Origin: Sulfurimonas denitrificans DSM 1251
GTDB taxonomy: Bacteria; Campylobacterota; Campylobacteria; Campylobacterales; Sulfurimonadaceae
DNA length: 64,000 nucleotides
Reading direction: 5' to 3'
NCBI RefSeq assembly: GCF_000012965.1
Contig: NC_007575.1
Coordinates: 558,001 to 622,000, forward strand
Positions 34,181-55,691 of this stretch are shown piece after piece (the stretch's first letter is position 1; every line of letters begins with the position of its first letter). The position numbers and the translations under genes were made by a program. The notes under the pieces were generated by a model. It saw nothing but the letters and a program-made list of their open reading frames with translations. It had not been told where the DNA came from and made no database searches.

Positions 34181-34999
34181 ATGAAAAACCTGTTTAAATT
34201 AATAATCTTTACTCTATTGTTTGTAACTTCATCAAGTGCTCTGACTCTTCAAAAGGGCACTCTCTATACAAATCAAGATATTAAAGGGTATCTAATGTCT
34301 GAAAAACTTGACGGTATAAGAGCTTATTGGGATGGTAAAAATCTTCTCACAAGACAAAATAAAGTCATAAACGCTCCTGAGTTTTTTACGCAAAATCTTC
34401 CGCCATTTGAGCTTGATGGTGAGCTTTGGACTTCAAGAGGAGATTTTGAAAATATACAGTCAATAGTTATGGACAAAACTCCTTCAAAAAAGTGGAGCGA
34501 GATAAAATATATGATTTTTGAAGTCCCTCATGCAAAGGGTGATTTTTTAAAGCGTTTGGAAAAAGCAAGAGAGCATATAGAAAAAAAGAGAGCTCTACAT
34601 GTAGAGATTATAGAGCAAAAAATCTGTAACTCAAAGAGAGATTTGGATCTATTTTTAAAAGAGATTCTCTCAAGGGGCGGAGAGGGAGTCATGTTAAAAG
34701 ATGCTTCAAGAGAGTACTTTGAGGGTAGAAGTGAGCATCTGTTAAAGGTTAAAAAAGCTGATGATATGGAAGCAGAGGTGATTGGCATTAAAGAAGGAAA
34801 GGGTAAGTTTAAAGGGCTGATGGGAAGCTTACATGTAAGAGTAGAGAGTGGGGTTGAATTTTTTATAGGGAGCGGTTTTAGCGATGAAGATAGAAAAAAT
34901 CCGCCAAAAATAGGTGAAATAGTCACTTTTAAATATTATGGTTTTACGAAAGAGGGCAAACCAAAGTTTGCATCATTTATGAGAGTAAGAGAGGATTGA
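34181..34999 (+). CDS. ligE: Secreted ATP-dependent DNA ligase, LigE type
   Basis: A 272-aa minimal ATP-dependent DNA ligase with an N-terminal signal peptide (about 1-20). The adenylated lysine is K42 in SEKLDGIRAYWDG (motif I). ELDGELW is motif III, FEVPHAKGDF near motif IIIa, GGEGVMLK motif IV, and LLKVKK motif V; a short OB-fold follows. Lig E enzymes are thought to act on periplasmic DNA, often in naturally competent bacteria. It is divergent from the glycosidase-like gene and shares one base with the next GT9 gene. Confidence 0.88.
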   Translation: MKNLFKLIIFTLLFVTSSSALTLQKGTLYTNQDIKGYLMSEKLDGIRAYWDGKNLLTRQNKVINAPEFFTQNLPPFELDGELWTSRGDFENIQSIVMDKTPSKKWSEIKYMIFEVPHAKGDFLKRLEKAREHIEKKRALHVEIIEQKICNSKRDLDLFLKEILSRGGEGVMLKDASREYFEGRSEHLLKVKKADDMEAEVIGIKEGKGKFKGLMGSLHVRVESGVEFFIGSGFSDEDRKNPPKIGEIVTFKYYGFTKEGKPKFASFMRVRED

Positions 35000-42044: not shown

Positions 42045-42063
42045 ATAAGAGAGGTATTTGAAA

Positions 42064-43269
42064 ATGAAAAAAATATTAAACCTAATAGGAAGAACAAAAG
42101 AGCTTTTTATAGATGACATTAATACTCATAATAAAGAGCTTAAAAATATAGTTTCATCTTCAACTTTTTTGGTTCTCGGCGGTGCTGGAAGTATCGGTCA
42201 AGCAGTCACCAAAGAGATATTTAAACGCCACCCTAAAAAGCTACATGTAGTAGATATATCTGAGAACAATATGGTTGAGTTGGTTAGAGATATACGAAGT
42301 AGTTTTGGATATATTGATGGAGATTTCCAAACCTTTGCTTTAGATATTGGTAGCTCTGAATATGACGCTTTTATCAAGTCTGATGGGAAATATGATTATG
42401 TTTTAAATCTCTCAGCACTCAAACATGTAAGAAGTGAAAAAGATCCATTTACACTTATGCGCATGATTGAGACAAATGTTTTTAATACCGATAAAACACT
42501 TCTACAATCCATAGAAAATGGGGTAAAAAAGTACTTTTGTGTAAGTACAGATAAAGCCGCAAATCCAGTAAATATGATGGGTGCTAGCAAGCGAATCATG
42601 GAGATGTTTGTGATGAGAAAATCACAGCAGATAGATGTCTCAATGGCACGATTTGCAAATGTGGCTTTTAGTGATGGAAGCCTTCTTCATGGTTTTGATC
42701 AGCGTATAAAAAAACTCCAACCCATAGTCGCTCCAAATGATATAAAAAGATACTTTGTTACAACGCAAGAGAGCGGTGAACTTTGTCTTATGTCTTGTAT
42801 TTTTGCTCAAAACAGAGATATATTTTTCCCAAAACTAAGCGAAAATCTACATCTAATAACTTTTGCAGAGATTGCAGTAAAGTATTTAAAAGATTTAGGA
42901 TATGAACCATATCTTTGCAAAGATGAAGATGAAGCAAGAAATTTTTTCACTGAAAATTTCAAATCAAATACAGAGCATTCAAAGCAGTGGCCATGCCTAT
43001 TTACGGCAAGTGATACGACTGGAGAGAAGGATTTTGAAGAGTTTTTTACAGATGCAGAAACCTTAGATATGAATAGATTTGAGAATTTAGGTGTTATAAA
43101 AAATGAAGCAAATTATGATGAAGAGAAATTAAATCATTTTGAGAATACAATAAAAAAATATAAACAAAACCTCACATGGACAAAAGAAGATATTGTAAAA
43201 GAGTTTTTTAAAATGATTCCAGATTTTGGACATAAAGAGAGCGGTAAGTATCTTGATGCAAAGATGTAA
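42064..43269 (+). CDS. legB: UDP-/GDP-GlcNAc 4,6-dehydratase, LegB type
   Basis: A 401-aa extended SDR without the membrane segments of PglF. FLVLGGAGSIGQAV binds NAD, and STDKAANPVNMMGASKR is the CapD/PglF-type active-site block in which Met replaces the usual Tyr. It corresponds to Cj1319/LegB, which makes the 4-keto-6-deoxy intermediate of legionaminic acid. ATG 42064 lies 9 nt after GAGG; a TTG two codons upstream is less likely. It is the first gene of the sugar operon. Confidence 0.85.
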   Translation: MKKILNLIGRTKELFIDDINTHNKELKNIVSSSTFLVLGGAGSIGQAVTKEIFKRHPKKLHVVDISENNMVELVRDIRSSFGYIDGDFQTFALDIGSSEYDAFIKSDGKYDYVLNLSALKHVRSEKDPFTLMRMIETNVFNTDKTLLQSIENGVKKYFCVSTDKAANPVNMMGASKRIMEMFVMRKSQQIDVSMARFANVAFSDGSLLHGFDQRIKKLQPIVAPNDIKRYFVTTQESGELCLMSCIFAQNRDIFFPKLSENLHLITFAEIAVKYLKDLGYEPYLCKDEDEARNFFTENFKSNTEHSKQWPCLFTASDTTGEKDFEEFFTDAETLDMNRFENLGVIKNEANYDEEKLNHFENTIKKYKQNLTWTKEDIVKEFFKMIPDFGHKESGKYLDAKM

Positions 43270-43270
43270 T

Positions 43271-44407
43271 ATGAAAAATATAGTAGATTTTATACAAAAT
43301 ACTTTTAAAACTAAAGAGTTTGTTCCGCTTCATGAACCTAGATTTATAGGAAATGAAAAAAAATATTTAAACGACTGCATAGACTCTACTTTTGTCTCAA
43401 GCGTTGGTAAATATGTAGATACTTTTGAAAAAGAGTTTGCTTTGCGTGTAGGAAGTAAATACGCAATAGCAACGGTAAATGGAACTGCGGCGCTACATGT
43501 AAGTTTATTGCTTGTAGATGTAAAAAAAGACGATGAGGTTATCACTCAACCACTTACCTTTATAGCTACATGTAATGCTATCTCTTATCTTGGTGCAAAA
43601 CCTGTTTTTGTGGATGTTGATATTGATACTATGGGTTTGAGTCCAGATTCACTAAAGAGATTTTTAGAAAAAAATTGTGAGATAAAAAACAGTACATGTA
43701 TAAATAAAATCTCTGGCAAAGTGATAAAGGCTTGTGTCCCAATGCACACTTTTGGGCATCCTTGTCGTATTGATGAGATAAAAGAGATTTGTGATAAGTG
43801 GAATATATCTTTAGTAGAAGATGCAGCGGAGAGTTTGGGAAGTTACTATAAAAATAGGCATACAGGTACTTTTGGCAAAGTTGGAGCATTTAGTTTTAAT
43901 GGCAATAAAATTATCACCTCAGGTGGGGGCGGAGTTATAGTTACAGATGATGAGGCGATAGCAAAAAGAGCAAAACACATCACAACAACAGCTAAAATCC
44001 CGCACCCTTATGAGTATGTACATGATGAGGTAGGCTACAACTACAGACTGCCAAATATAAATGCAGCCCTGCTTGTGGCTCAATTAGAGCAACTTGATGG
44101 ATTTTTAGCCTCTAAAAGAGAGCTAGCTTTAAGATATAAAGAGTTTTTTTCAAAAAGTGAGATAGTTTTTGCAGAGGAGCCCAAGGAGAGTAAATCAAAC
44201 TACTGGCTCCAAGCGATACTCTTAAGCGATAAAAACCAAAGAGATGAATTTTTAGAGTTTACAAATAAAAACGGCGTAATGACAAGACCTATTTGGCGGC
44301 TTATGAATGAGCTTGAGATGTTTAAAGATTGTCAAAGAGATAATTTAAAAAATGCTAAATATTTAGAACAAAGAGTTGTAAATATACCAAGTAGTGTGAT
44401 TTTATAA
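43271..44407 (+). CDS. legC: Sugar-nucleotide 4-aminotransferase LegC
   Basis: A 378-aa DegT/DnrJ/EryC1 PLP enzyme that aminates C4 of the LegB product. PLP lysine is K213 in FNGNKIITSGGGG, with VEDAAESLGS holding the cofactor aspartate. ATG 43271 begins 1 bp after the legB stop; the frame continues 15 codons upstream inside legB. It shares one base with the next gene (TAATG). Confidence 0.9.
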   Translation: MKNIVDFIQNTFKTKEFVPLHEPRFIGNEKKYLNDCIDSTFVSSVGKYVDTFEKEFALRVGSKYAIATVNGTAALHVSLLLVDVKKDDEVITQPLTFIATCNAISYLGAKPVFVDVDIDTMGLSPDSLKRFLEKNCEIKNSTCINKISGKVIKACVPMHTFGHPCRIDEIKEICDKWNISLVEDAAESLGSYYKNRHTGTFGKVGAFSFNGNKIITSGGGGVIVTDDEAIAKRAKHITTTAKIPHPYEYVHDEVGYNYRLPNINAALLVAQLEQLDGFLASKRELALRYKEFFSKSEIVFAEEPKESKSNYWLQAILLSDKNQRDEFLEFTNKNGVMTRPIWRLMNELEMFKDCQRDNLKNAKYLEQRVVNIPSSVIL

Positions 44408-44982
44408 TGAAAGAAAAAATAATTTTAATCGGTGGCGGTGGGCATTGTCATAGTGTTATAGATGTTATTGAGCTTGAAGATAAGTATGAAATCGTAGGAA
44501 TTATTGATATCAAAGAGAATATTGGAAAAAAAGTTTTAGGTTATGAAATTATTGGATGTGATGATGATTTGAGTACTATATTTCAAACTTGTAAAAATGC
44601 AGTTATAACAGTAGGACAAGTAAAATCAAACAGCATAAGAGTTGAGTTGTTTGAGAAGTTAAAAAGAGTGGGATTTAAACTGCCAACTATAATTTCGCCT
44701 TTGGCTTATGTGTCAAAGCATGCATGCGTAGATGAGGGAACTGTGGTTATGCATCATGCGCTTATAAATGCAAATGCAAAAATAGGTAAAAATTGCATCA
44801 TAAACACAAAAGCTTTGATAGAACATGACGCGATTGTAGAAGATTATTGCCATATATCAACTGCAAGTGTTGTCAATGGTGGAGTGATAGTAAAAGCAGA
44901 TACTTTTTTTGGAAGTAATGCAACTTCAAAACAGAGTGTAAAAGTCGAGGGATTTATAAAAGCTGGGAGTGTAGCAAAATGA
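44407..44982 (+). CDS. legH: NeuD/PglD-like sugar N-acetyltransferase
   Basis: A 191-aa protein with an N-terminal Rossmann-like part (IILIGGGGHCHSVIDVIE) and a left-handed beta-helix from about 95 (CVDEGTVVMHHALINANAKIGKNCIINTKALIEHD, with the catalytic His near 137). In this position it probably N-acetylates the 4-amino group (LegH role); NeuD-type O-acetylation of the finished sugar is the alternative. The stop overlaps legI by 4 bp. Confidence 0.78.
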   Translation: MKEKIILIGGGGHCHSVIDVIELEDKYEIVGIIDIKENIGKKVLGYEIIGCDDDLSTIFQTCKNAVITVGQVKSNSIRVELFEKLKRVGFKLPTIISPLAYVSKHACVDEGTVVMHHALINANAKIGKNCIINTKALIEHDAIVEDYCHISTASVVNGGVIVKADTFFGSNATSKQSVKVEGFIKAGSVAK

Positions 44983-45980
44983 GCAAAGTCTTTATAATAG
45001 CAGAGGCAGGAGTTAATCATAACGGAGATATAAAACTAGCCAAAAAGCTTATAGATGTAGCTTGTATTGCAGGTGTTGATGCTGTTAAATTTCAAACTTT
45101 TAAAGCAATTAATCTTGTAAGTAAAAATGCACAAAAGGCTGAGTATCAAAAAAAGAACATGAGTGATGGCGATGATTCTCAGTTTAACATGTTAAAAAAA
45201 TTAGAGCTAGACATAGATACGCACAAAGAATTAATCGCATACTGCAACTCAAACAAGATAATGTTTTTATCTACCCCTTTTGACCATGATAGTATTGAGC
45301 TTTTAAATGATTTAGGGCTGCAAATTTTTAAAATTCCAAGCGGAGAGATTACAAATCTCCCATATTTAAGACACATAGGAAAACTAAACAAAAAAATCAT
45401 ACTCTCAACTGGAATGGCAGATATGGGCGAGATTGAAGATGCCCTAGATGTTTTAGTAAACGCTGGAACAAAAAAAGAGAATATTACAGTCTTACATGCT
45501 AACACAATGTACCCAACTCCTATGGAAGATGTAAATTTAAGAGCGATGATAACAATAGGAGAAGCTTTTGATGTAGCATTTGGATATAGTGACCATACTT
45601 TAGGCATAGAAGTTCCTATCGCAGCAGTTGCAATGGGCGCTACATGTATAGAAAAACACTTTACACTAGATTGTACGATGGATGGACCAGACCATAAAGC
45701 TTCACTAGAGCCAGACGAACTCAAAGCGATGGTAAAAGCTATACGAAATATTGAGTTAGCAATGGGAAGCGGTATCAAAAAACCATCTAAAAGTGAAATG
45801 CCAAATATTCAAATAGCTAGAAAATCTATAGTTGCAAAAAGTGGCATAAAAAAAGGTGAAATTTTAAGCGAAGAAAACCTAGCTATAAAAAGACCAGCAA
45901 ATGGGATAAACCCTATGAGATGGGATGAAATCGTTGGAACTATTGCTTCTAAGGACTATGAGGAAGATGAGTTGATATGA
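44979..45980 (+). CDS. legI: Legionaminic acid synthase (NeuB family)
   Basis: A 333-aa protein: a TIM-barrel synthase (1-270) that condenses a 6-deoxy-2,4-diacetamido hexose with PEP, then an antifreeze-like SAF domain (about 280-333). Motifs: AEAGVNHNGDIKLAKKLI, FSTPFD-like FLSTPFDHDS, GYSDHTLG, and EKHFTLD. It groups by context with NeuB2/LegI and not with PseI. It overlaps both neighbours by 4 bp. Confidence 0.9.
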   Translation: MSKVFIIAEAGVNHNGDIKLAKKLIDVACIAGVDAVKFQTFKAINLVSKNAQKAEYQKKNMSDGDDSQFNMLKKLELDIDTHKELIAYCNSNKIMFLSTPFDHDSIELLNDLGLQIFKIPSGEITNLPYLRHIGKLNKKIILSTGMADMGEIEDALDVLVNAGTKKENITVLHANTMYPTPMEDVNLRAMITIGEAFDVAFGYSDHTLGIEVPIAAVAMGATCIEKHFTLDCTMDGPDHKASLEPDELKAMVKAIRNIELAMGSGIKKPSKSEMPNIQIARKSIVAKSGIKKGEILSEENLAIKRPANGINPMRWDEIVGTIASKDYEEDELI

Positions 45981-46858
45981 ATGAAATAATCACTACAGAT
46001 AATCAAATGATACAAGACAAAATTTATACGCTAAGAGACGAACAAGTGATGTTGGATAAAGATTTGGCAGAGTTGTATGGAGTTGAAACAAAAAGAATTA
46101 ATGAAGCAGTTAAAAATAATCAAGATAAATTTCAAGAAGATTTTTTCTTTGAATTGACAAATGATGAATTTAGTATTTTGCGGTCGAAACTTTCGACCGC
46201 AAAATTTGCTAAAACTAGAACTAATCCTAAAGTTTTTACAGAACAAGGTGTCTATATGTTGGCGACTATACTAAAGAGTAAAGTTGCTTCACAAACTACT
46301 GTTTTGATTATTAAAACATTTGCAAATATGAGAAAGTTTTTATTATCAAATGCGAGTATCTTTCAAAGACTAGACTCACTTGAAGTTAAACAAATCCAAA
46401 GCAAATTAGAATCAGATGAAAAGTTCAATAAAATCTTCAACGCTATAGAAGAAAAGGGCATACCACAAAAACAACATATCTTTTACAACGGACAGATTTT
46501 TGATGCATATCTTTTCGTAAGTGATATTATAAAAAATGCTAAAACATCTATAAAACTCATTGATAACTATGTAGATGAAACAACATTAATATTGTTTACT
46601 AAAAGAGATGCAAATGTAAGTATGACAATATATACAAAAACGATATCTGCACAGTTAAATCTAGATTTACAAAAATATAATGCTCAATACCCAAACATAG
46701 AGATAAAAAAGTTTGATTTATCACATGATAGATTTTTAATCATTGATGAAAAAGAGATATATCACTTTGGAGCTAGCTTAAAAGACTTAGGTAAAAAATG
46801 GTTTGCAGTCTCCAAGATGGATATTGATTCTTTTGAATTTATGGAGAAGTTGAAATGA
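45977..46858 (+). CDS. ORF6N-domain protein with PLD-like C-terminus
   Basis: A 293-aa protein. Residues about 12-105 form the ORF6N (KilA-N-related) DNA-binding domain: VMLDKDLAELYGVETKRINEAV, ending KVFTEQGVYMLATILKS. A helical linker follows, then a domain (about 165-293) with a phospholipase-D-like half site HDRFLIID (H250, Lys replaced by Arg) and YHFGASLKDLGKK. Such proteins are usually found on phages and genomic islands. Here it overlaps legI and legG by 4 bp each (ATGA), so it is built into a glycan operon. A perfect 15-bp inverted repeat lies in codons 67-77. Function unknown; regulator or defence effector are both possible. Confidence 0.85.
   Translation: MNEIITTDNQMIQDKIYTLRDEQVMLDKDLAELYGVETKRINEAVKNNQDKFQEDFFFELTNDEFSILRSKLSTAKFAKTRTNPKVFTEQGVYMLATILKSKVASQTTVLIIKTFANMRKFLLSNASIFQRLDSLEVKQIQSKLESDEKFNKIFNAIEEKGIPQKQHIFYNGQIFDAYLFVSDIIKNAKTSIKLIDNYVDETTLILFTKRDANVSMTIYTKTISAQLNLDLQKYNAQYPNIEIKKFDLSHDRFLIIDEKEIYHFGASLKDLGKKWFAVSKMDIDSFEFMEKLK
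46175..46205. repeat. Perfect 15-bp inverted repeat inside the ORF6N gene
   Basis: ATTTTGCGGTCGAAA, one C, then its exact reverse complement TTTCGACCGCAAAAT. It encodes ILRSKLSTAKF in the DNA-binding domain. The GC-rich centre stands out from the AT-rich surroundings. Confidence 0.95.
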
Positions 46859-48018
46859 GTAAAAGAAAAATATGTGTAGTAACAGGAACTAGAGCTGAGT
46901 ATGGATTGCTTTATTGGCTTATGAAAGAGATACAAAATGATAGCGAACTAGAACTTCAACTCATTGTTACAGGAATGCACCTAAGTCCAGAGTTTGGACT
47001 GACTTATAAAGAGATAGAGAAAGATTTTAAAATTGATAAAAAAATAGAGATGTTGCTCTCTTCAGATACTGCTGTTGGCATCTCAAAGTCTATGGGCTTG
47101 GCTCAGATAAGTTTTGCAGAAGCTTATGAAGAGCTAAAGCCTGACATATTGGTAGTTTTAGGCGATAGATATGAAATATTTAGTGCTGTAAGTGCTGCTA
47201 TGATAGCTCGTGTTCCTATTGCGCATTTACATGGCGGAGAGAGTACTGAGGGCGCATTTGATGAGTCTATTCGTCATAGCATAACAAAGATGAGTCATCT
47301 TCACTTTACTGCTACAGAGGAGTATAAAAAGAGAGTTATTCAACTTGGAGAGCAGCCGAAGAGAGTTTTTAATGTTGGTGGAATGGGAATAGAAAACATT
47401 AAAAGATTAAAACTTTTAACAAAAAAAGAGTTTGAAGAGTCAATTAATTTTAAACTTAACAAAAAAAACATATTAGTAACTTTTCATCCCGTAACTCTTG
47501 AAAATTCAACCGCCAAAGAGCAATTTCAAGAGCTCCTTGATGCAATAGATGAGTTAAGGGATACAAATATAATTTTTACAAAAGCAAATAGTGATACAGA
47601 TGGAAGAGTTATAAATCAGATGTGTGATGAGTATGTTACTAATAATCATCATAAATCAATTTGCTTTACTTCCTTAGGGCAGTTACGCTACTTAAGCGCA
47701 TTGCAACATGTAGATGCTATGATTGGCAATAGCTCTAGCGGCTTAGCAGAAGCCCCTAGCTTTAAGATAGGAACTATCAACATCGGAGATAGGCAAAAAG
47801 GACGCATACAAGCCAAAAGTGTGATAGATTGTGAGCCTATAAAATCATCAATTTCTCAAGCGTTTAAAAAGCTTTACACTCAAGAGTTTCAAGAGTTATT
47901 AAAAAATACAGCAAACCCTTATGGTGATGGGTGCGCAAGTATAAAGATTGTTAAGGAACTAAAAAAGTTAGATTTAGATAATATTTTAAAAAAATTATTT
48001 TATGATTTAAGGGTTTAA
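46855..48018 (+). CDS. legG: UDP-diacetylbacillosamine-type 2-epimerase, hydrolysing (LegG/NeuC)
   Basis: A 387-aa GT-B-fold epimerase that releases the UDP or GDP moiety and inverts C2, giving the hexose substrate of LegI. VTGTRAEYGLLYWLM opens the protein, with DILVVLGDRYEIFSA, HLHGGESTEGAFDE, and GNSSSGLAEAPSF. All are NeuC/LegG signatures. It is preceded by the ORF6N gene (4-bp overlap). Confidence 0.92.
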   Translation: MSKRKICVVTGTRAEYGLLYWLMKEIQNDSELELQLIVTGMHLSPEFGLTYKEIEKDFKIDKKIEMLLSSDTAVGISKSMGLAQISFAEAYEELKPDILVVLGDRYEIFSAVSAAMIARVPIAHLHGGESTEGAFDESIRHSITKMSHLHFTATEEYKKRVIQLGEQPKRVFNVGGMGIENIKRLKLLTKKEFEESINFKLNKKNILVTFHPVTLENSTAKEQFQELLDAIDELRDTNIIFTKANSDTDGRVINQMCDEYVTNNHHKSICFTSLGQLRYLSALQHVDAMIGNSSSGLAEAPSFKIGTINIGDRQKGRIQAKSVIDCEPIKSSISQAFKKLYTQEFQELLKNTANPYGDGCASIKIVKELKKLDLDNILKKLFYDLRV

Positions 48019-48020
48019 TT

Positions 48021-49067
48021 ATGAAAAGAATAAATAATATAAAACTAAAACCAACTTCAACTATAAAAGAAGCACTTATAATTATTGATAGTGGTGCCAT
48101 GCAGATAGCTTTAATAGTTGATGAAAATGACAGGCTCTTAGGAACACTTACAGATGGAGATATAAGAAGAGGACTTCTAAAAGGGCTGGATTTAAATAGT
48201 TCCATAGAGTCTGTTATATTTAAAACTCCAACAGTTGCTAAGATAAGTGATACAAAAGAGGAAATTCTAAAAATAGCACTTACAAAAAAACTCCATCAAA
48301 TTCCTATAGTAGATGAAGATGGAAAAATTATAGGTATTCAAGATATAGAAGAGCTTATAAAACCAAAAGATAAAACAAACAGAGTTATTTTAATGGTAGG
48401 AGGTTTAGGGACAAGACTTAGACCACTTACAGAAAATACTCCAAAGCCCATGCTTAAAGTTGGAAACAAACCAATACTTCAGACTATAGTGGAAAAATTT
48501 GCTGAGTATGGTTACACAAATATAGTTATGTGTGTAAATTATAAATCACATGTAATAGAGAACTATTTTGGGGATGGGAGTGAGTTTGGAGTAAACATAG
48601 AGTATGTCTTGGAAGATAAACGTATGGGAACAGCTGGGGCATTAAGTCTTCTTAAAACCAAACCAACAGAGCCATTTTTTGTAATGAATGGAGACTTGCT
48701 TACCAATGTTAACTTTGCTCATTTAGACAACTATCATCTCTCAAATAACGCAATGGCAACTATGTGTGTAAGAGAGTATGATTTTCAAGTGCCTTATGGG
48801 GTTGTAAGTATAAAAAATAGCAAAATACTCTCCATAGAAGAGAAACCAACACATAAGTTTTTTGTAAGCGCTGGAATATATATGCTTTCTCCAGAAATCT
48901 TAGAGTATATTCCAAAAAATCAGTTTTATGATATGCCAACACTCTTTGAAGATCTTATAAGCAAAAATAAAAATGTAGTCTCCTTTCCTTTGAGAGAGTA
49001 TTGGCTTGATATTGGACGAATGGAAGAGTTTGAAAAAGCAAATAATGAGTATGATGAGGTGTTTTAA
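48021..49067 (+). CDS. ptmE: Glucosamine-1-phosphate nucleotidyltransferase with CBS pair (PtmE-like)
   Basis: A 348-aa fusion: two CBS domains (about 1-115, GTLTDGDIRRGLLKG and IPIVDEDGKIIGI) and a nucleotidyltransferase (about 120-348) with VGGLGTRLRPLTENTPKPML and MNGDLLT. In Campylobacter PtmE activates glucosamine-1-phosphate with GTP for a GDP-based legionaminate route, so this pathway may also use GDP sugars. The CBS pair suggests adenine-nucleotide control. It ends one base into legF. Confidence 0.85.
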   Translation: MKRINNIKLKPTSTIKEALIIIDSGAMQIALIVDENDRLLGTLTDGDIRRGLLKGLDLNSSIESVIFKTPTVAKISDTKEEILKIALTKKLHQIPIVDEDGKIIGIQDIEELIKPKDKTNRVILMVGGLGTRLRPLTENTPKPMLKVGNKPILQTIVEKFAEYGYTNIVMCVNYKSHVIENYFGDGSEFGVNIEYVLEDKRMGTAGALSLLKTKPTEPFFVMNGDLLTNVNFAHLDNYHLSNNAMATMCVREYDFQVPYGVVSIKNSKILSIEEKPTHKFFVSAGIYMLSPEILEYIPKNQFYDMPTLFEDLISKNKNVVSFPLREYWLDIGRMEEFEKANNEYDEVF

Positions 49068-49783
49068 TGTATAAGGATAAAACTTTTTTAGTAGTCATTC
49101 CAGCACGTGGTGGAAGCAAAGGGTTGCCTGGTAAAAACATAAAAGAGATTTGCTCTAAACCACTCATTGCATGGAGTATTGAAGCTGGTGTTAAAAGTAA
49201 ACATGTAGATGAGGTAATGGTAACAACTGATTATCAAGATATAGCAGATATTGCCAAAAAATATGGTGCAAATGTTCCATTTTTAAGACCTGATTTTTTA
49301 GCTAGTGATACTGCAACCTCATTTGATGCGATAAAACATACAATAGATTTTTATAAAAATGAGCTTCATAAAGAGTTTGATTATATTGTGTTGCTTGAGC
49401 CAACTTCACCGCTAAGAGAAGATTATGATATTGATAATATGATAGAAAAAATAGTTAATAATGAAAATGAGTTTGACTCTATCGTCTCAATAGGCGAAGT
49501 TCATGAACACCCATCCATTATGAAAAAAATTATAAACAATAATCATCTCTCTTCTTATTGCCAAGAGTTAGAGATGAAAACAAGAAGACAAGATAATGAT
49601 GTTGCCTATTTTCCTTATGGTGTTGCATACATCGTAAAAACAAAATCTTTGCTAGAGGAAGAGACATTTTACACAAAAAGAAATACTTTTTATGAGATAA
49701 AGCGTTACCAATGTTATGAGATAGATGATGTTTATGATTTCTTAGCGATTGAGAATATAATGAAATTTGAATGGGGGATATGA
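49067..49783 (+). CDS. legF: CMP-legionaminate cytidylyltransferase (LegF/PtmB)
   Basis: A 238-aa NeuA-type enzyme that activates the nonulosonic acid with CTP. VVIPARGGSKGLPGKNI is the nucleotide-binding loop and LLEPTSPLREDYDID the second conserved block. Context fixes the substrate class as legionaminate-type. The stop overlaps the start of the next gene. Confidence 0.9.
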   Translation: MYKDKTFLVVIPARGGSKGLPGKNIKEICSKPLIAWSIEAGVKSKHVDEVMVTTDYQDIADIAKKYGANVPFLRPDFLASDTATSFDAIKHTIDFYKNELHKEFDYIVLLEPTSPLREDYDIDNMIEKIVNNENEFDSIVSIGEVHEHPSIMKKIINNNHLSSYCQELEMKTRRQDNDVAYFPYGVAYIVKTKSLLEEETFYTKRNTFYEIKRYQCYEIDDVYDFLAIENIMKFEWGI

Positions 49784-50805
49784 TGAGATTTTTAGTAATT
49801 GGTTTAGGCTCAATGGGAAAGCGAAGAGTTCGCAATCTTATAGCATTAGGACATAAAGATAGTGTCGCAGGATTTGATTTAAGAGAAGATAGAAGAGATG
49901 AAGCTAAAAAGTATGAGATTGAATTATATGATAGTTTTGATAGAGCGATGGAGGAGTTTAAGCCAGATGCATTTTTAATCTCAACACCACCAAATTTACA
50001 TATGCACTATGCCTATATCGCACAAGAGAATGGTATTCACTCTTTTATAGAAGCTTCAGTTGTTGATGCTCAAAAAATATTAGAGTTGTCAAAAATTTTA
50101 AAAGATAAAAAACTCGTAATGGCTCCATCATGTACGATGCGCTACTACCCAATGCCTATGAAGATAAAAGAGTTAGTTTTAGGCGGTGTTATTGGTAAAG
50201 TTTTAAACTATAACTACCACACAGGGCAGTATCTTCCAGATTGGCATCCATGGGAGAAAATAGAAGATTTTTATGTCTCAAATCCTGATACTGGAGGATG
50301 CAGAGAGATTGTTCCTTTTGAGCTTACATGGCTAAATGATATTTTTGGCGATGGCAAACCTTTAGCCTGTGTCAGAAGAAAATTAACTGATATGCAAGCT
50401 AATATAGATGATATTTATCACTCTATTTTAGAGTATCCAAATAACGTGATTGGAAATCTAACAGTAGAAGTAATATCTAGACCAAAAGCAACCAGAGAGA
50501 TTAGAATATTGGGCTCAGAGGGCGAAATTGCTTATAGTGCAGACAGCAATGAGTTACGATATATAAATACAAAAATGTCTGATTGGGATAGAATAAACTT
50601 TGACACAGGTACTGTTGAGAGCGGGTATATCAATCCAGAAGAGCCATATATAAATGAAGTAAAAGCATATATAGATGCAATTATTGATGTGAAAAATGCT
50701 AAGCCATCATCATATCCAAACACACTAGAAGATGATTATAAGATACTACAAACACTTTACAAATTAGAAGAAATAAGCGAGGGAAGAGATGACTTATCAA
50801 GATAG
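49783..50805 (+). CDS. ptmF: Gfo/Idh/MocA oxidoreductase (PtmF-like)
   Basis: A 340-aa NAD(P)-dependent sugar oxidoreductase. N-terminal Rossmann FLVIGLGSMGKRRVRNL; the C-terminal alpha/beta domain begins after SCTMRYYPMP. The homologue PtmF of Campylobacter belongs to the same flagellin-sugar cluster; its exact step is not settled. ATG 49783 was preferred since GGGGGAT precedes it at a good distance; ATG codons at 49771 and 49780 are alternatives. Confidence 0.82.
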   Translation: MRFLVIGLGSMGKRRVRNLIALGHKDSVAGFDLREDRRDEAKKYEIELYDSFDRAMEEFKPDAFLISTPPNLHMHYAYIAQENGIHSFIEASVVDAQKILELSKILKDKKLVMAPSCTMRYYPMPMKIKELVLGGVIGKVLNYNYHTGQYLPDWHPWEKIEDFYVSNPDTGGCREIVPFELTWLNDIFGDGKPLACVRRKLTDMQANIDDIYHSILEYPNNVIGNLTVEVISRPKATREIRILGSEGEIAYSADSNELRYINTKMSDWDRINFDTGTVESGYINPEEPYINEVKAYIDAIIDVKNAKPSSYPNTLEDDYKILQTLYKLEEISEGRDDLSR

Positions 50806-52081
50806 ATTATTAAAAGTAATTCCAGGGGGAGCGCACACATACAGCAGAGGGTATGATCAATATCCACTAAATGCACCACAAATTCTAAAAAGAGGAAAAG
50901 GTGCTTATATTTATGATGAAGCAGAGAATGAATTTTTAGATTATGGAATGGCTCTTCGTGCTGTAAATCTAGGTTATGCAAATGATGAAGTAAATCAAGC
51001 AGCAATTAAACAGATTGAGTATGGTAATAATCTTACAAAACCAAGTTTGATTGAGCTTGAAGCAGCTGAACTTTTAGTAGATATGATAGATAGCGTTGAT
51101 ATGGTAAAGTTTACCAAAAATGGCTCAACCGCAACAACGGCAGCAGTTAAATTAAGTCGTGCATATACTGGTAGAACTTTAATAGCTAGATGTGTGGAAC
51201 AACCTTTTTTTAGTTACGATGACTGGTTTATTGGCTCAACTCCAATAACTAAAGGGATAACAAAAAACGATATAGAAAATACAAAACTATTTAATTATAA
51301 CAATATAGAGAGTTTAGAAAAATTGTTTAGTGAGTTTCCAAATGAGATTGCTTGTGTGATGCTCGAACCTTCTTCAACTGAACATCCAAAAGATAATTTT
51401 CTACATAAAGTAAAAGAACTTTGTCATAAAAATGGGGCAGTTTTTATACTTGATGAGATGATTACTGGGTTTAGATGGCATCTAAAAGGGGCTCAACACT
51501 ACTATGATGTTAAAGCAGACCTTTGTACTTTTGGAAAAGCTATGGCAAATGGTTTTTCAGTTGCTGCAATTGCTGGAAAAAGAGAGATTATGCAGTTAGG
51601 TTCTATTGAATTTATAGGACAAGAGAGGCTGTTTTTACTCTCAACAACGCATGGAGCTGAGATGAGCGGGCTTGGCGCATTTGTAGAAACAATGAAGTTT
51701 ATGAAAGAACAGCGTGTAGTTGAGCACATGTGGAATTATGGAGAAAAACTAATAGCGCTTATGAATGAGAGTGCTAAAAAATATGGGATAGAGAAAAACT
51801 TTATAGCAGGTGGCATAGAGTGTAGTCCTTACTATTTGACATTTGATAAAGATGGTGCAAACTCTTTAGGACTTAGAACACTGTTTTCTCAAGAGATGAT
51901 AAAAAATGGTGTTTTAATGCCATGGATAGCACTCTCTTATGCTCATGGCGATAAAGAGCTAGAGATAACAAAAAATGCATTAGAGAAAACATTTGAAGTG
52001 TATAGAAAAGCGGTTGATGATGGATATGAAAAATATTTAGTTGGGGAAGCAATCAAGCCAGTATTTAGAAAGTTTAATTAA
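50789..52081 (+). CDS. Class III aminotransferase, glutamate-1-semialdehyde-mutase-like
   Basis: A 430-aa PLP enzyme. VIPGGAHTYSRG is the GSAM-like N-terminus, LDEMITGFRW carries the cofactor Asp, and TFGKAMANGFSVAA the PLP Lys (K250). True HemL makes aminolevulinate, but the site in a nonulosonate operon, overlapping ptmF (17 bp) and the nitrilase (1 bp), argues for a sugar or side-chain amination. Related genes occur in other surface-sugar loci. The substrate is unknown. Confidence 0.8.
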   Translation: MTYQDRLLKVIPGGAHTYSRGYDQYPLNAPQILKRGKGAYIYDEAENEFLDYGMALRAVNLGYANDEVNQAAIKQIEYGNNLTKPSLIELEAAELLVDMIDSVDMVKFTKNGSTATTAAVKLSRAYTGRTLIARCVEQPFFSYDDWFIGSTPITKGITKNDIENTKLFNYNNIESLEKLFSEFPNEIACVMLEPSSTEHPKDNFLHKVKELCHKNGAVFILDEMITGFRWHLKGAQHYYDVKADLCTFGKAMANGFSVAAIAGKREIMQLGSIEFIGQERLFLLSTTHGAEMSGLGAFVETMKFMKEQRVVEHMWNYGEKLIALMNESAKKYGIEKNFIAGGIECSPYYLTFDKDGANSLGLRTLFSQEMIKNGVLMPWIALSYAHGDKELEITKNALEKTFEVYRKAVDDGYEKYLVGEAIKPVFRKFN

Positions 52082-52863
52082 TGAAAATAGCTTTGATTTC
52101 CTTAAACCAGATTTGGGAAGATAAAGATAAAAATTTAATTTTATGTGAAAAAAATATACAAAAAGCTGTAGAAGGCAAGGCTGATTTGATTATTTTTCCA
52201 GAGATGACATTGACAGGATTTTCTAACAATATACCTTTTATAGTAGAAAATATTGAAGATAGTAAAACAATAAAAGAGTTTTCATCTTTGGCTAAAAAAT
52301 ACAATACTGCATTGGTTTTTGGAGTTGCAATAAAAGATGGAGATAAAGCATTAAACAAGGCTGTCTTTATTGATAAAAATGGTAGCGTTTTGGGGAAGTA
52401 CTCAAAAATTCATCCATTTACTTTTGCAGGAGAAGATAAATATTTTAATGCTGGAAACAGTCTTGAAATTGTAAATTTTGAAAATTTTAAGATAGGGTTA
52501 ACAATCTGTTATGACTTAAGATTTCCTGAACTTTATAGCTCATTAGCTAAAAGTTGTGATTTGGTTATCAATATCGCGAATTGGCCTTTTAAAAGAGTAG
52601 CGCATTGGAATACGCTGCTTAAAGCAAGAGCAATAGAAAATCAAATCTTTATAGCAGGAATAAATAGAGTGGGAGTTGATGGAAATAATTTGGAGTATTG
52701 TGAGAGCAGTAATATGTTTAATGCAAATGGAGAACAGGTATATTTTGAACAAATTGATGAGATGAAACTTTATGAAATAGAGAAAGATTGGACTAAAGAA
52801 TTTAAAAGTAAATTTAATACAACAAATGATAGAAAAGTAGAATTTTATAAGGAAATATTGTAA
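52081..52863 (+). CDS. Nitrilase-superfamily carbon-nitrogen hydrolase
   Basis: A 260-aa amidase with a complete catalytic triad: E41 in FPEMTLTG, K109 in GKYSKIHPF, and C143 in CYDLRFPE. Omega-amidase and N-carbamoyl-hydrolase groups share this layout. It is locked between the GSAM-like aminotransferase and ptmA by one-base overlaps, so it probably acts on an amide or provides an amino or amidine group on the nonulosonate. This is inference from context. Confidence 0.85.
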   Translation: MKIALISLNQIWEDKDKNLILCEKNIQKAVEGKADLIIFPEMTLTGFSNNIPFIVENIEDSKTIKEFSSLAKKYNTALVFGVAIKDGDKALNKAVFIDKNGSVLGKYSKIHPFTFAGEDKYFNAGNSLEIVNFENFKIGLTICYDLRFPELYSSLAKSCDLVINIANWPFKRVAHWNTLLKARAIENQIFIAGINRVGVDGNNLEYCESSNMFNANGEQVYFEQIDEMKLYEIEKDWTKEFKSKFNTTNDRKVEFYKEIL

Positions 52864-53633
52864 TGCTGAATGAAAATATAGTAGTTATCACAGGTGGAGC
52901 TGGACTTATAGGAAAAGAATTTGTTAAAGCTGTCGTTGAAAATAATGGTATCGCAATTATTGCAGATATAAATAAAGAGATAGGTCTTGAAGCAAAAGAG
53001 AGTTTATCAAAAGAGTTAAATACTACAAAAATAGATTTTGTAAAACTTGATATTACTTCAAAAGAGTCTTTAAGTGAATGTATAGAGTACCTAAACGAAA
53101 AATATGGAAAAATTGATGCACTTGTAAATAATGCTTATCCAAGAAATAAAAATTATGGAAGACATTTTTTTGATGTAGAATATGATGATTTTATAGAAAA
53201 TTTAGGATTAAATCTTGGTGGGTATTTTACAACTTCACAACAGTTTGCAAAATACTTCAAGAAGCAAGGTTATGGAAATATAATAAATATAAGCTCAATA
53301 TATGGAGTTATGGCTCCTAAATTTGAGGTATATTCAAACACTTCTATGACAATGCCTGTAGAGTATGCAGCAATTAAGGCAGGGCTTATCCATCTTACAA
53401 AATATATGTCAAAATATTTTAAAGGTATGAATATAAAAGTAAATGCCCTAAGCCCTGGAGGTATTCTTGACAATCAGCCACAAGAGTTTTTGGATAAATA
53501 TAAACAAGAGTGTTCCAACAAAGGAATGCTTGACAAGAGTGATTTAAAAGGTACGTTAATCTATCTGCTTAGTGATATGAGCAAGTATGTAAATGGGCAA
53601 AATATAATAGTTGATGATGGGTTTAGTTTATGA
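52863..53633 (+). CDS. ptmA: Short-chain dehydrogenase PtmA-like
   Basis: A 256-aa classical SDR: VVITGGAGLIGKEF for cofactor binding, ALVNNAYPRN, the Ser in NISSIYG, and Y168-x3-K172. The C-terminus YVNGQNIIVDDGFSL is standard. It resembles PtmA of the Campylobacter flagellin-sugar locus. It is the last gene of the tightly overlapping run; a gap of 59 bp with TATAAT-like sequence follows. Confidence 0.85.
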   Translation: MLNENIVVITGGAGLIGKEFVKAVVENNGIAIIADINKEIGLEAKESLSKELNTTKIDFVKLDITSKESLSECIEYLNEKYGKIDALVNNAYPRNKNYGRHFFDVEYDDFIENLGLNLGGYFTTSQQFAKYFKKQGYGNIINISSIYGVMAPKFEVYSNTSMTMPVEYAAIKAGLIHLTKYMSKYFKGMNIKVNALSPGGILDNQPQEFLDKYKQECSNKGMLDKSDLKGTLIYLLSDMSKYVNGQNIIVDDGFSL

Positions 53634-53692: not shown

Positions 53693-54664
53693 ATGAAAAA
53701 TTTATTTGTTGCAAGATCACCATTACAAGTTATAAATGCGATTGAAGCCGTTAAGCACTTTAAATTGACAAACAATACTCTTGTGCTTATTTATAATCGA
53801 TCAACTGCAAATACAAAACAGATGCGATTTTTATTAAGCTTACTTGAGTGGGAAGAGGTTATTCATATAGAAGATGGTTATGGATCAAAGATATTAAAAT
53901 ATGTAAATTTGATAAAAAAACTTAGAAAAGAGAGATTTAATTACATTTTTGTCGGAGAGCTTGGCGTATCTTATAAGATGATAATCGCAAATATAAAAAA
54001 AGAGAAAGTTTTTCTTATGGATGATGGAACAGCTACTATTGTTTATTATAATACTTTTATAAAGCAAGATAGATACAATAAATATAATTTTAAAGAGTTG
54101 CGATTTTTACTGTTTGGTTTAAAGATAAAAATTAGAGACAAAATAAATTTATTTACTTATTTTGATTTAGCGCCAGTTCATGGCAATGAAGTAATAAAAA
54201 ACAATTTAGCATATTTTAAACGAAAATATTTAAGTAATGCTATAAAAGAGAATGATATAGTTTATTTTATAGGACAACCTGCTGATATATTTATGGACAT
54301 TGATGTTTATAAAAAAGACATAGAGGCATTGATAAAAAAATTTAATAAAAAAATAGTCTATATTCCTCATCGTTTAGAGGTTTACAAACAACAAGAGGCT
54401 ATTAACTCTATTGAAAGTGACCTTTTTGAAGTTAAAAAACTAGACGTACCAATAGAGTTGTATTTTTTACAAAGTGATGTATATCCAATGCATATAGTTT
54501 CTTATTACTCTACGGCATTAGTAACACTAAAGTTCCTTTTTGATATGTGTATAAATGAATATATAATAGTTCCTAAAAACAGTATTAATGAAAAGAGATA
54601 TGAAGGGATAGAGAGTTGCTACTCTATATTTAAAGAATCAGGTATGCATCAATTGCAAATTTAA
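53693..54664 (+). CDS. Nonulosonate/sialyltransferase-like protein, copy 1
   Basis: A 323-aa soluble GT-B-like protein. Start NLFVARSPLQVINAIEA, the DDGTATI motif (about 119-125), and IVYIPHRLE near 220 fit the GT52 / polysialyltransferase-like pattern of CMP-sialic-acid users. The family call is by motif only. It is a close paralogue of the next gene (shared block with RFLLFGL and DKINLFTYFD). It follows the CMP-sugar operon directly, so it likely transfers the product of this cluster onto LPS or protein. Confidence 0.55.
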   Translation: MKNLFVARSPLQVINAIEAVKHFKLTNNTLVLIYNRSTANTKQMRFLLSLLEWEEVIHIEDGYGSKILKYVNLIKKLRKERFNYIFVGELGVSYKMIIANIKKEKVFLMDDGTATIVYYNTFIKQDRYNKYNFKELRFLLFGLKIKIRDKINLFTYFDLAPVHGNEVIKNNLAYFKRKYLSNAIKENDIVYFIGQPADIFMDIDVYKKDIEALIKKFNKKIVYIPHRLEVYKQQEAINSIESDLFEVKKLDVPIELYFLQSDVYPMHIVSYYSTALVTLKFLFDMCINEYIIVPKNSINEKRYEGIESCYSIFKESGMHQLQI

Positions 54665-54686
54665 TAAAAACAAGGATAAGTTGCGT

Positions 54687-55691
54687 ATGAAAAACTTATT
54701 TGTACTTAAATCGCCACTACAGGTTATAAACGCCCTTGAAGCAGTAGCGCATTTTAAATTATCAAAAAACATATTTGTTTTGATATACACAGACTCTTTA
54801 GTTAATGAAAATCAGATGAGAGAGCTCGCAGATAGTAATAGTATGCCTGATATTGAATTTATACATGTTAAAAAAGAGTTTAAATCTAAATTTTTAAAAT
54901 ATGTTCAGCTTATAAAAGAGTTTAAAAAAGATAGTTACAATCATATTTTTTTAGGAGAGATTGGCAAATTTCATAAAGTTCTTTTGGCAAATATAAAAAA
55001 AGAGAAGGTATTCTTACTAGACGATGGAACAGCGACTATTAAATTTTATAATGAAGTTATCAAAACGAATAAGTACAATAGATATAAATTTAAAGAGATG
55101 AGGTTTTTATTATTTGGATTAAGAGTTAAAATAAAAGATAAAATAAATCTATTTACCTATTTTGATTTTGAGCCAATTCATGGGGTTGAAATTGTAAAAA
55201 ACAGATTGGAAAATCTGAGAAAAAATAATCAAGGGCAAGAGTGTAAGCACAATGAAGAGATTATCTATTTTATAGGTGAGCCGTTAGATCAAATAAACGT
55301 TATCGATACGGATACGTATAAAGATATGATTGAAAATTTAATAAATATGTTCAAAAAAAAAGTTATATATATTCCGCATAGATATGAATCTAAACAGTTA
55401 AAAAAAACAGTATCTTCAGTTGATAACAAACTATTTGAGATAAAAAATATAAATAAACCAATAGAGACCTATTTTATAGAACAAAAAATATATCCTAAAC
55501 ATATAATATCCTGCTCTTCAACAGCGCTTACAACATTAGGCATGATGTATGAAGAGGCTATCGTAAATATAATAAAAATCCCAGAAAATGATAATAACAG
55601 GGCATATTTTGATAGTTTTTTAAGAGAGTTCTATGAAAATTCAGATAAAAATAGAGTAATTACATTTAGAGAGTTGGGAATTATAAAATAA
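54687..55691 (+). CDS. Nonulosonate/sialyltransferase-like protein, copy 2
   Basis: A 334-aa tandem paralogue of the preceding gene: NLFVLKSPLQVINALEA, LLDDGTATI, VIYIPHRYES and HIISCSSTALTTL (a donor-site-like SSTAL). ATG 54687 was chosen because it restores the MKNLFV start of copy 1; TTG at 54681 is closer to AAGGATAAG. Divergence outside shared motifs is substantial, so the duplication is not recent and acceptors may differ, for example chain start and chain extension. Confidence 0.55.
   Translation: MKNLFVLKSPLQVINALEAVAHFKLSKNIFVLIYTDSLVNENQMRELADSNSMPDIEFIHVKKEFKSKFLKYVQLIKEFKKDSYNHIFLGEIGKFHKVLLANIKKEKVFLLDDGTATIKFYNEVIKTNKYNRYKFKEMRFLLFGLRVKIKDKINLFTYFDFEPIHGVEIVKNRLENLRKNNQGQECKHNEEIIYFIGEPLDQINVIDTDTYKDMIENLINMFKKKVIYIPHRYESKQLKKTVSSVDNKLFEIKNINKPIETYFIEQKIYPKHIISCSSTALTTLGMMYEEAIVNIIKIPENDNNRAYFDSFLREFYENSDKNRVITFRELGIIK

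Follow-up and report, generated by a model that had tools for sequence, protein, structure and literature searches.

Gene content of the locus

The window analysed here, a stretch of 64,000 nucleotides from the genome of Sulfurimonas denitrificans DSM 1251 (2,201,561 bases in one contig), carries a gene cluster for the biosynthesis of legionaminic acid, a nonulosonate, which runs on the forward strand from legB (42058) to ptmA (53633) with small overlaps between genes. This report concerns two of these genes, one coding for a class-III aminotransferase (50789–52081; gene and protein are referred to as AT) and one for a nitrilase-family protein (52081–52863; NIT). AT is not HemL, the glutamate-1-semialdehyde aminomutase (GSAM) whose name it bears in databases; it pairs with NIT, it is found mostly in nonulosonate clusters and its presence co-varies with the type of LegF, leading us to propose that the two proteins may place an additional amino group on the nonulosonate. 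The genes of the cluster are as follows.

42058–43269, + strand: legB, 4,6-dehydratase, core route; weak matches to PseB/FnlA models below cut-off, assigned from position and from homologues in other clusters
43226–44407, + strand: legC, aminotransferase, core route; TIGR04181, 573.7 bits (cut-off 420)
44407–44982, + strand: NeuD-type acetyltransferase (legH), core route; TIGR03570, 164.8 bits (cut-off 160.8)
44979–45980, + strand: legI, nonulosonate synthase, core route; TIGR03569, 521.8 bits (cut-off 399.65)
46855–48018, + strand: legG, epimerase/hydrolase, core route; TIGR03568, 509.4 bits (cut-off 235.9)
48021–49067, + strand: ptmE, nucleotidyltransferase with CBS domains, core route; NTP_transferase and CBS (Pfam)
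49067–49783, + strand: legF, cytidine monophosphate (CMP)-nonulosonate synthetase of the AT-linked clade; CTP_transf_3 (Pfam) and a split in the gene tree
49771–50805, + strand: ptmF-like Gfo/Idh/MocA oxidoreductase of the AT-type subfamily, proposed partner oxidoreductase; GFO_IDH_MocA (Pfam)
50789–52081, + strand: AT, GSAM-like class-III aminotransferase of 430 residues, proposed glutamine-dependent nonulosonate aminotransferase; NF004856
52081–52863, + strand: NIT, nitrilase-superfamily amidase of 260 residues, proposed omega-amidase for 2-oxoglutaramate; best model PRK10438/YafV
52863–53633, + strand: ptmA, oxidoreductase of the short-chain dehydrogenase/reductase (SDR) type, proposed partner oxidoreductase; adh_short_C2, 127.1 bits; PRK09186, 396.2 bits (cut-off 255); FlagModPtmA, 299.6 bits (cut-off 350)

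A preliminary description of this DNA had placed AT and NIT in an overlapping run between ptmF and ptmA, had credited both with full catalytic residues and had called them an add-on to a core route that is complete without them. These statements hold. The open reading frames lie where they were described; AT overlaps ptmF by 17 nucleotides, and NIT shares a TAATG overlap with each of its neighbours, AT and ptmA. The core genes legB, legC, the acetyltransferase gene, legI, legG, ptmE and legF occupy positions 42058–49783 and correspond to the core of the CMP-legionaminate route of Campylobacter jejuni (legB/C/H/G/I/F, ptmE, ptmF, ptmA), legB being recognized by weak models only, with AT and NIT added in the window. 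Of 149 related genomes, 38 match ptmE with 460 bits or more, and only three of these 38 contain AT above its cut-off, as expected of an add-on. The order legF-ptmF-AT-NIT-ptmA recurs in two other Sulfurimonas genomes, one Arcobacter and one Micavibrio and, with one inserted methyltransferase gene, in the spirochaete Turneriella.

Relationship of AT to HemL

AT belongs to the Aminotran_3 family (133.8 bits; Pfam cut-off 30.5) and scores 716.3 bits, above the curated cut-off of 486, with NF004856, the NCBIfam model of the PRK06209 family. The NCBIfam name of this family is glutamate-1-semialdehyde aminomutase and the same label is found in annotated records, so that the gene is prone to be misread as hemL. 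The two proteins share a fold class (fold type I) and a core that binds pyridoxal 5'-phosphate (PLP), with the PLP lysine K250 and D222 of AT equivalent to K266 and D238 of HemL. Against the hemL equivalog TIGR00713, AT scores 211.9 bits, below the cut-off of 527.3. A true hemL, with 605.4 bits against the same model, lies elsewhere in the genome (G000:C1:1165032-1166297; L003).

Phylogenetic analysis of 92 rows placed 76 AT rows in a single clade (support 100/99) and 14 HemL rows, drawn from related genomes only, in another (99/97). Comparison of the 14 HemL rows with 74 AT rows identified 44 positions that are conserved differently in the two groups (in at least 95% of HemL and at least 85% of AT), including W61, Y144 and H145 of HemL, which correspond to L56, F140 and F141 of AT. 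AT differs from HemL also in its location in sugar clusters. The preliminary description had named a HemL role, shown by the lack of any other hemL in the genome and by grouping with HemL, as something that would refute its reading. Apart from the family name, such a role could draw on the presence of hemN a few genes downstream; the TIGR00713 score, the separate clade, the differing conserved positions and the true hemL at L003 refute it, and we give it practically no chance of being correct.

NIT and its pairing with AT

NIT is a member of the CN_hydrolase family (145.9 bits; Pfam cut-off 23.2) with the catalytic Glu-Lys-Cys triad E41/K109/C143, plus E118. The triad is the same as that of Escherichia coli YafV (E42/K107/C141), the RefSeq name of which is 2-oxoglutaramate amidase, and its positions are retained in all or all but one of the 24 rows of the NIT alignment. 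PRK10438/YafV (NF007757) is the best NCBIfam model for NIT at 161.7 bits, 66 bits above the runner-up (95.5 bits). In the NIT tree, YafV, which is the sole reference, is sister to the main AT-linked clade (88/89) on a long branch.

A search of 397 genomes of the phylum of the window gave AT (E ≤ 1e-90) in 24 genomes, in 25 copies, and NIT (E ≤ 1e-45) in four, these counts being subject to single misses since scoring was confined to a few top candidates per genome. All four NIT genes directly adjoin an AT, two of them an AT of only 43% and 48% identity, and the overlap of AT and NIT genomes would arise by chance with P ~1e-5. NIT matches of at least 340 bits were found in five of the 149 nearer relatives, four of which have AT. 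NIT is absent from all 17 ptmE stretches that lack AT, some of which are cut by contig ends. AT and NIT most likely constitute a matched functional pair. As the NIT proteins of L092 (a weak match of 83 bits) and L095 fall outside the main AT-linked clade, there may have been more than one origin of the pairing.

In the fifth of these relatives (G025, L168), NIT belongs to a NeuB-type cluster whose class-III aminotransferase is not of the AT family and which also encodes a cytidylyltransferase, two SDRs, a VOC/glyoxalase-like protein recognized by inspection of the sequence and a protein weakly similar to sugar-phosphate epimerases. The cluster is perhaps devoted to another aminated ulosonate.

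The combination of an aminotransferase and a YafV-like amidase matches that of a glutamine transaminase/omega-amidase system, from which we infer that NIT is an omega-amidase serving AT and that glutamine is the amino donor. As in the known pairs of this kind (methionine salvage; YafV, Nit2), an aminotransferase is joined by a nitrilase-family amidase, here one nearest to YafV; the partner in this case is a class-III aminotransferase of a sugar cluster, and both activities are predicted. Hydrolysis of 2-oxoglutaramate renders the transamination irreversible, a ratchet whose reach is reported to extend, perhaps, far beyond methionine salvage (PMC6302742).

Distribution and genomic context of AT

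A collection with a single genome for each of 84,980 species was searched for AT loci with two short patterns; this gave 327 stretches encoding relatives of any closeness, of which the best 80 were compared. Many of these 80 loci are incomplete at the ends of the stretch. AT scores at least 340 bits against the window protein in 65 of the 80, and a NeuB-type synthase is present in 34 of the 35 loci that combine this score with at least 9 kb on either side. Within 2.5 kb of AT there is a cytidylyltransferase in 57/80 loci, an oxidoreductase in 63/80 and NIT in 17/80. Among the 69 loci with a close neighbour on the same strand, 50 have ptmF, SpsF or legF immediately before AT; immediately after it, 20 of 63 loci have ptmA and 11 have NIT.

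Two types of cluster were seen. Those of the legionaminic acid (Leg) type contain legC, legI, legG, ptmE, legF, ptmF, AT, NIT and ptmA. Those of the pseudaminic acid (Pse) type (L227, L220) contain PseB-like and PseC-like genes (weak matches), an aldo/keto reductase (by Pfam in L227; by KidO/methylglyoxal-reductase models below cut-off in L220), SpsF, AT, sometimes NIT, a PseG-PseH protein and a NeuB-type synthase. In Flavobacterium sp. 9AF (L098, 9218–11314) a cytidylyltransferase of the SpsF type (CTP_transf_3) is naturally fused to AT in a single protein of 698 residues. AT occurs in four of 393 genomes of the family to which this strain belongs (E ≤ 1e-75), as the fusion in one and beside a separate adjacent cytidylyltransferase in three, with NIT in one of the four.

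The AT tree mixes phyla and includes a spirochaete sequence at 85% identity, candidate-phyla bacteria, Legionella and Capnocytophaga, from which it appears that the gene moves between lineages by wide horizontal transfer. The family is not rare, given the 65 loci of at least 340 bits and the 24 of 397 genomes of the phylum that carry it; its hosts include Sulfurimonas, Arcobacter, Helicobacter and Capnocytophaga. A DNA search of E. coli O-antigen clusters of known structure gave no match to AT.

Some loci carry additional genes that a new amine would call for. A GNAT-type acetyltransferase follows AT directly in five loci of the phylum (L216, L218, L224 and L233, with L226 just below the Pfam cut-off), and a gene of the methyltransferase group does so in six of the best 80 loci (checked with Pfam in L045).

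Further observations were made on AT loci. In Legionella tunisiensis (L107) AT is split into three frames, and legG and ptmE are each divided in two; Rhodobacteraceae SC52 (L243) has AT in two frames. Genes of the radical SAM/SPASM type lie near AT in L048, L090, L096, L097 and L231 (Aliarcobacter, Helicobacter and others), as assigned by Pfam in L048 and L231 and by clustering or inspection of the sequence in the other three.

Gene-tree comparison of clusters with and without AT

Chosen nonulosonate clusters with AT (AT+) and without it (AT−) were compared gene by gene, counting the changes of AT state on each tree against 500 shuffles. One change on the LegF tree suffices to part the two sets (19 AT+ and 16 AT− rows; 0/500 shuffles as low, their mean being 11.9), with AT+ LegF on one side of a branch, apart from AT− LegF, in a tree built without the C. 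jejuni sequence. For the other genes, the observed and shuffled counts were 12 and 12.0 (ptmE), 9 and 10.9 (legI), 12 and 11.5 (legG), 6 and 7.0 (ptmA) and 7 and 8.9 (legC), and 69–375 of the 500 shuffles were as low. The same-phylum rows alone gave 1 change for LegF (shuffled 8.7; 0/500; support of that branch only 56), compared with 8 for PtmE (9.0; 162/500), 7 for LegI (8.4; 121) and 9 for LegG (9.1; 316). The PtmA of the window belongs to the same subfamily as in AT− clusters of related genomes, whereas its LegF and PtmF belong to other subfamilies; the ptmF matches of AT− clusters, where present, reach only 31–56 bits.

As LegF tracks AT and the trees of LegC, LegG and LegI do so little or not at all, the place of the cassette in the route is probably between LegI and CMP activation. 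The co-variation of the CMP-synthetase with AT also suggests that the product is probably other than plain di-N-acetylated legionaminic acid (Leg5Ac7Ac), in keeping with what the preliminary description had anticipated.

Proposed function

The combination of these results leads us to a proposal in which belief and doubt weigh about equally: AT and NIT would perform a glutamine-driven amination of the nonulosonate, ratcheted by NIT and assisted by an adjacent oxidoreductase and a dedicated CMP-synthetase, most likely at C8. The oxidoreductase (PtmA or PtmF here; the aldo/keto reductase in Pse-type clusters) would introduce a ketone into the nonulosonate that LegI produces. AT, as a PLP-dependent aminotransferase, would transfer the alpha-amino group of glutamine to this ketone, and hydrolysis of the leaving 2-oxoglutaramate by NIT would make the step irreversible. 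The aminated sugar would then be activated by the dedicated CMP-synthetase, which is LegF of the AT-linked clade here and of the SpsF type elsewhere. With C8 as the most likely position, the product would be an 8-amino-8-deoxy legionaminic acid. Of the two roles that the preliminary description had offered, an unusual N-linked side group or the supply of the amino donor, what survives is an extra amine, which would sit on the nonulosonate itself; NIT is reread as an omega-amidase serving AT instead of a maker of the side group.

C8 is a lead, to which we attach rather less than even confidence, drawn by analogy from the 8-amino nonulosonate of Flexibacter maritimus and from the C8 chemistry of EpaA and EpaB. 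The same position is aminated in Kdo8N, the route to which consists of oxidation, amination and then CMP transfer, with an aminotransferase of another family than AT. Kdo8N, found in Shewanella lipopolysaccharide, has its amine at C8 of an ulosonic acid (PMC3210612), as proposed here, but is an eight-carbon sugar. The O-polysaccharide of F. maritimus (now Tenacibaculum) contains an 8-amino-3,5,7,8,9-pentadeoxynonulosonic acid (PMC3210612), a product of the type proposed here, although of manno (Pse-like) configuration. In Acinetobacter prophages, EpaA (CTP_transf_3 and Aldo_ket_red) and EpaB (an SDR) convert Pse to 8ePse, an enzymatic epimerization at C8 (PMC12053666). Likened by their domains, the Pse-type AT clusters share with this system, which acts on C8 of a nonulosonate, a cytidylyltransferase, an aldo/keto reductase and an SDR, and the window PtmA, an adh_short_C2 protein, may be compared with the SDR EpaB. 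EpaA and EpaB work without an aminotransferase, whereas the window has enzymes of the Gfo/Idh/MocA and SDR types and, by Pfam, no aldo/keto reductase among its cluster genes. A search of phage records for EpaA/EpaB relatives gave aldo/keto reductase matches that were all weak and partial and, among the matches listed, no SDR above 35% identity. A PtmA-like SDR is encoded in the marine virus genome MH319754.1 (84908–85594; 35% identity over 91%).

In its fullest form, the proposal is that of a horizontally moving and widespread cassette that makes 8-amino-8-deoxy (5,7,8-triamino) legionaminic acid, or 8-amino-pseudaminic acid in Pse clusters, by C8 oxidation, glutamine amination and an omega-amidase ratchet ahead of CMP transfer by a dedicated synthetase; taken as a whole, this version is tentative and, on balance, doubtful.

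Several results weigh against amination of a nonulosonate by AT and NIT. A rhizobial AT branch (L240, L241, L242; 46–49% identity) has neither a NeuB-type gene nor NIT in the stretch. In the two annotated members, L241 and L242, which are rhizobial plasmids (L240 carries no annotation), AT belongs to a conserved cluster with a dehydratase-like SDR, DUF4910, rfbC, a methyltransferase, a glucose-1-phosphate cytidylyltransferase and a PIG-L deacetylase. The AT family thus also serves sugars other than nonulosonates and is best described as a sugar aminotransferase family, of which the majority of the members encountered here are tied to nonulosonates. NIT scores below the YafV model cut-off of 249 bits, and the NIT of L095 matches YafV (137.8 bits) and deaminated-glutathione amidase (137.6 bits) about equally; its presence near AT in just 17 of the 80 loci, many of them incomplete, means that NIT is not required at every AT locus. 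When the comparison is restricted to the 25 rows with LegF as well as PtmA, the LegF tree takes 2 changes and not 1 (0/500), and the PtmA tree 6 (122/500; shuffled mean 7.0 for each). The same-phylum rows of PtmA (4 changes; 5.9; 46/500) and LegC (5; 7.0; 48/500) lean weakly in the direction of LegF, and the association of LegF with AT may date from a single early event and have been preserved by linkage. As for the partner oxidoreductases, there is no ptmF beside AT in L115, L051 and L054, and ptmA is also present in AT− clusters (eight rows), where it would have another duty.

Alternative explanations

A purely physical link between LegF and AT, by which the cassette moved as a block while AT acts anywhere in the route, would suit the adjacency of legF and AT, the wide horizontal transfer in the AT tree and a LegF split that, as a single change, is possibly one event. 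Plain linkage fits poorly with the other neighbours, because PtmA, on the far side of AT and NIT, and PtmE, which adjoins legF, are both mixed between the AT+ and AT− sets; we consider this explanation quite unlikely. If the link is functional, AT could still act earlier, on C2, C3 or C4 of a nucleoside diphosphate (NDP)-hexose intermediate, as many sugar aminotransferases do and as the apparent nucleotide-hexose cluster of the rhizobial branch would suggest. LegC, LegG and LegI, which would then meet an altered hexose, show no clear co-variation with AT (LegC has the weak lean in same-phylum rows), and LegC is present besides AT, so that we judge action on an NDP-hexose to be no more probable than mere linkage, if not a little less so.

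More weight, although still in the range of the unlikely, attaches to AT as the builder of an amino-acid-like acyl group for later transfer to legionaminate, at N5, N7 or O8, with the amidase trimming its amide. N-acyl and amidine variety is common on Leg and Pse, formyltransferase-like and PIG-L-like genes (by inspection of the sequence) adjoin several AT clusters, and a bulky substituent would also make LegF co-vary. The neighbour groups listed contain no steady ligase partner, an ATP-grasp-like group (again by inspection) occurring in 5/80 loci, whereas the steady neighbours of AT are the cytidylyltransferase and the oxidoreductase, the former also being the partner in the sole fusion seen. 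The amino-donor option, in which AT, PtmF and PtmA would supply glucosamine phosphate for GDP-glucosamine (GDP-GlcN), is disfavoured and very unlikely. Class-III enzymes that aminate fructose 6-phosphate exist, which speaks for it. PtmA has been placed in the first, GDP-GlcNAc step of the pathway (PMC4481668). Against this, it is legF and not ptmE that co-varies with AT. AT is also present in the Pse-type clusters L227 and L220, whose stretches contain no ptmE, and the starting compound of the Pse route is UDP-GlcNAc.

Surroundings of the cluster

Upstream of the cluster lie genes for the lipopolysaccharide core, namely a heptose-type kinase-cytidylyltransferase, two heptosyltransferase-family genes and an MsbA-like transporter (below the model cut-off), in view of which the sugar of the cluster may be destined for lipooligosaccharide, alongside or instead of flagellin. 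Downstream of ptmA are two mutually related proteins of 323 residues (53693–54664) and 336 residues (54681–55691), followed by hemN. Neither has a Pfam match, and the first is also without a real match in the PDB; both are candidate glycosyltransferases for the sugar. An ORF6N-domain gene (45977–46858), absent from the preliminary description, is situated between legI and legG. Genes with ORF6N or KilA-N domains, which are known from phage regulators, recur in nonulosonate operons at varying positions in the gene order: in the window, L042 (6.6 kb), L048 (1.5 kb), L176 (2.4 + 4.8 kb) and L220 (7394–8197). A gene with ATP-dependent DNA ligase domains (34181–34999) lies inside the lipopolysaccharide core region.

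Implications

The component families are known, and the cassette would represent nonulosonate tailoring according to the logic of a transaminase/omega-amidase pair. Among the open-access papers listed, none was seen to connect a GSAM-like gene with any step of legionaminate or pseudaminate synthesis or to describe the AT/NIT combination with nonulosonates; a GSAM-like gene is merely listed in a Legionella O-antigen table (PMC3694923). If the fullest form of the proposal, with amination at C8, is correct, then to our knowledge 8-amino-nonulosonates would for the first time have a genetic basis, and a glutamine-transaminase/omega-amidase ratchet would for the first time be seen in the biosynthesis of a sugar. 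Amination of the nonulosonate by AT and NIT, if it holds, would offer genes for an orphan sugar known by its chemistry, the 8-amino-nonulosonate of F. maritimus, and an example of the 2-oxoglutaramate ratchet beyond methionine salvage. AT and NIT would then serve as a marker pair from which, in Sulfurimonas, Arcobacter, Helicobacter, Capnocytophaga and others, an extra amino group could be predicted on surface sugars of the sialic-acid-like kind.

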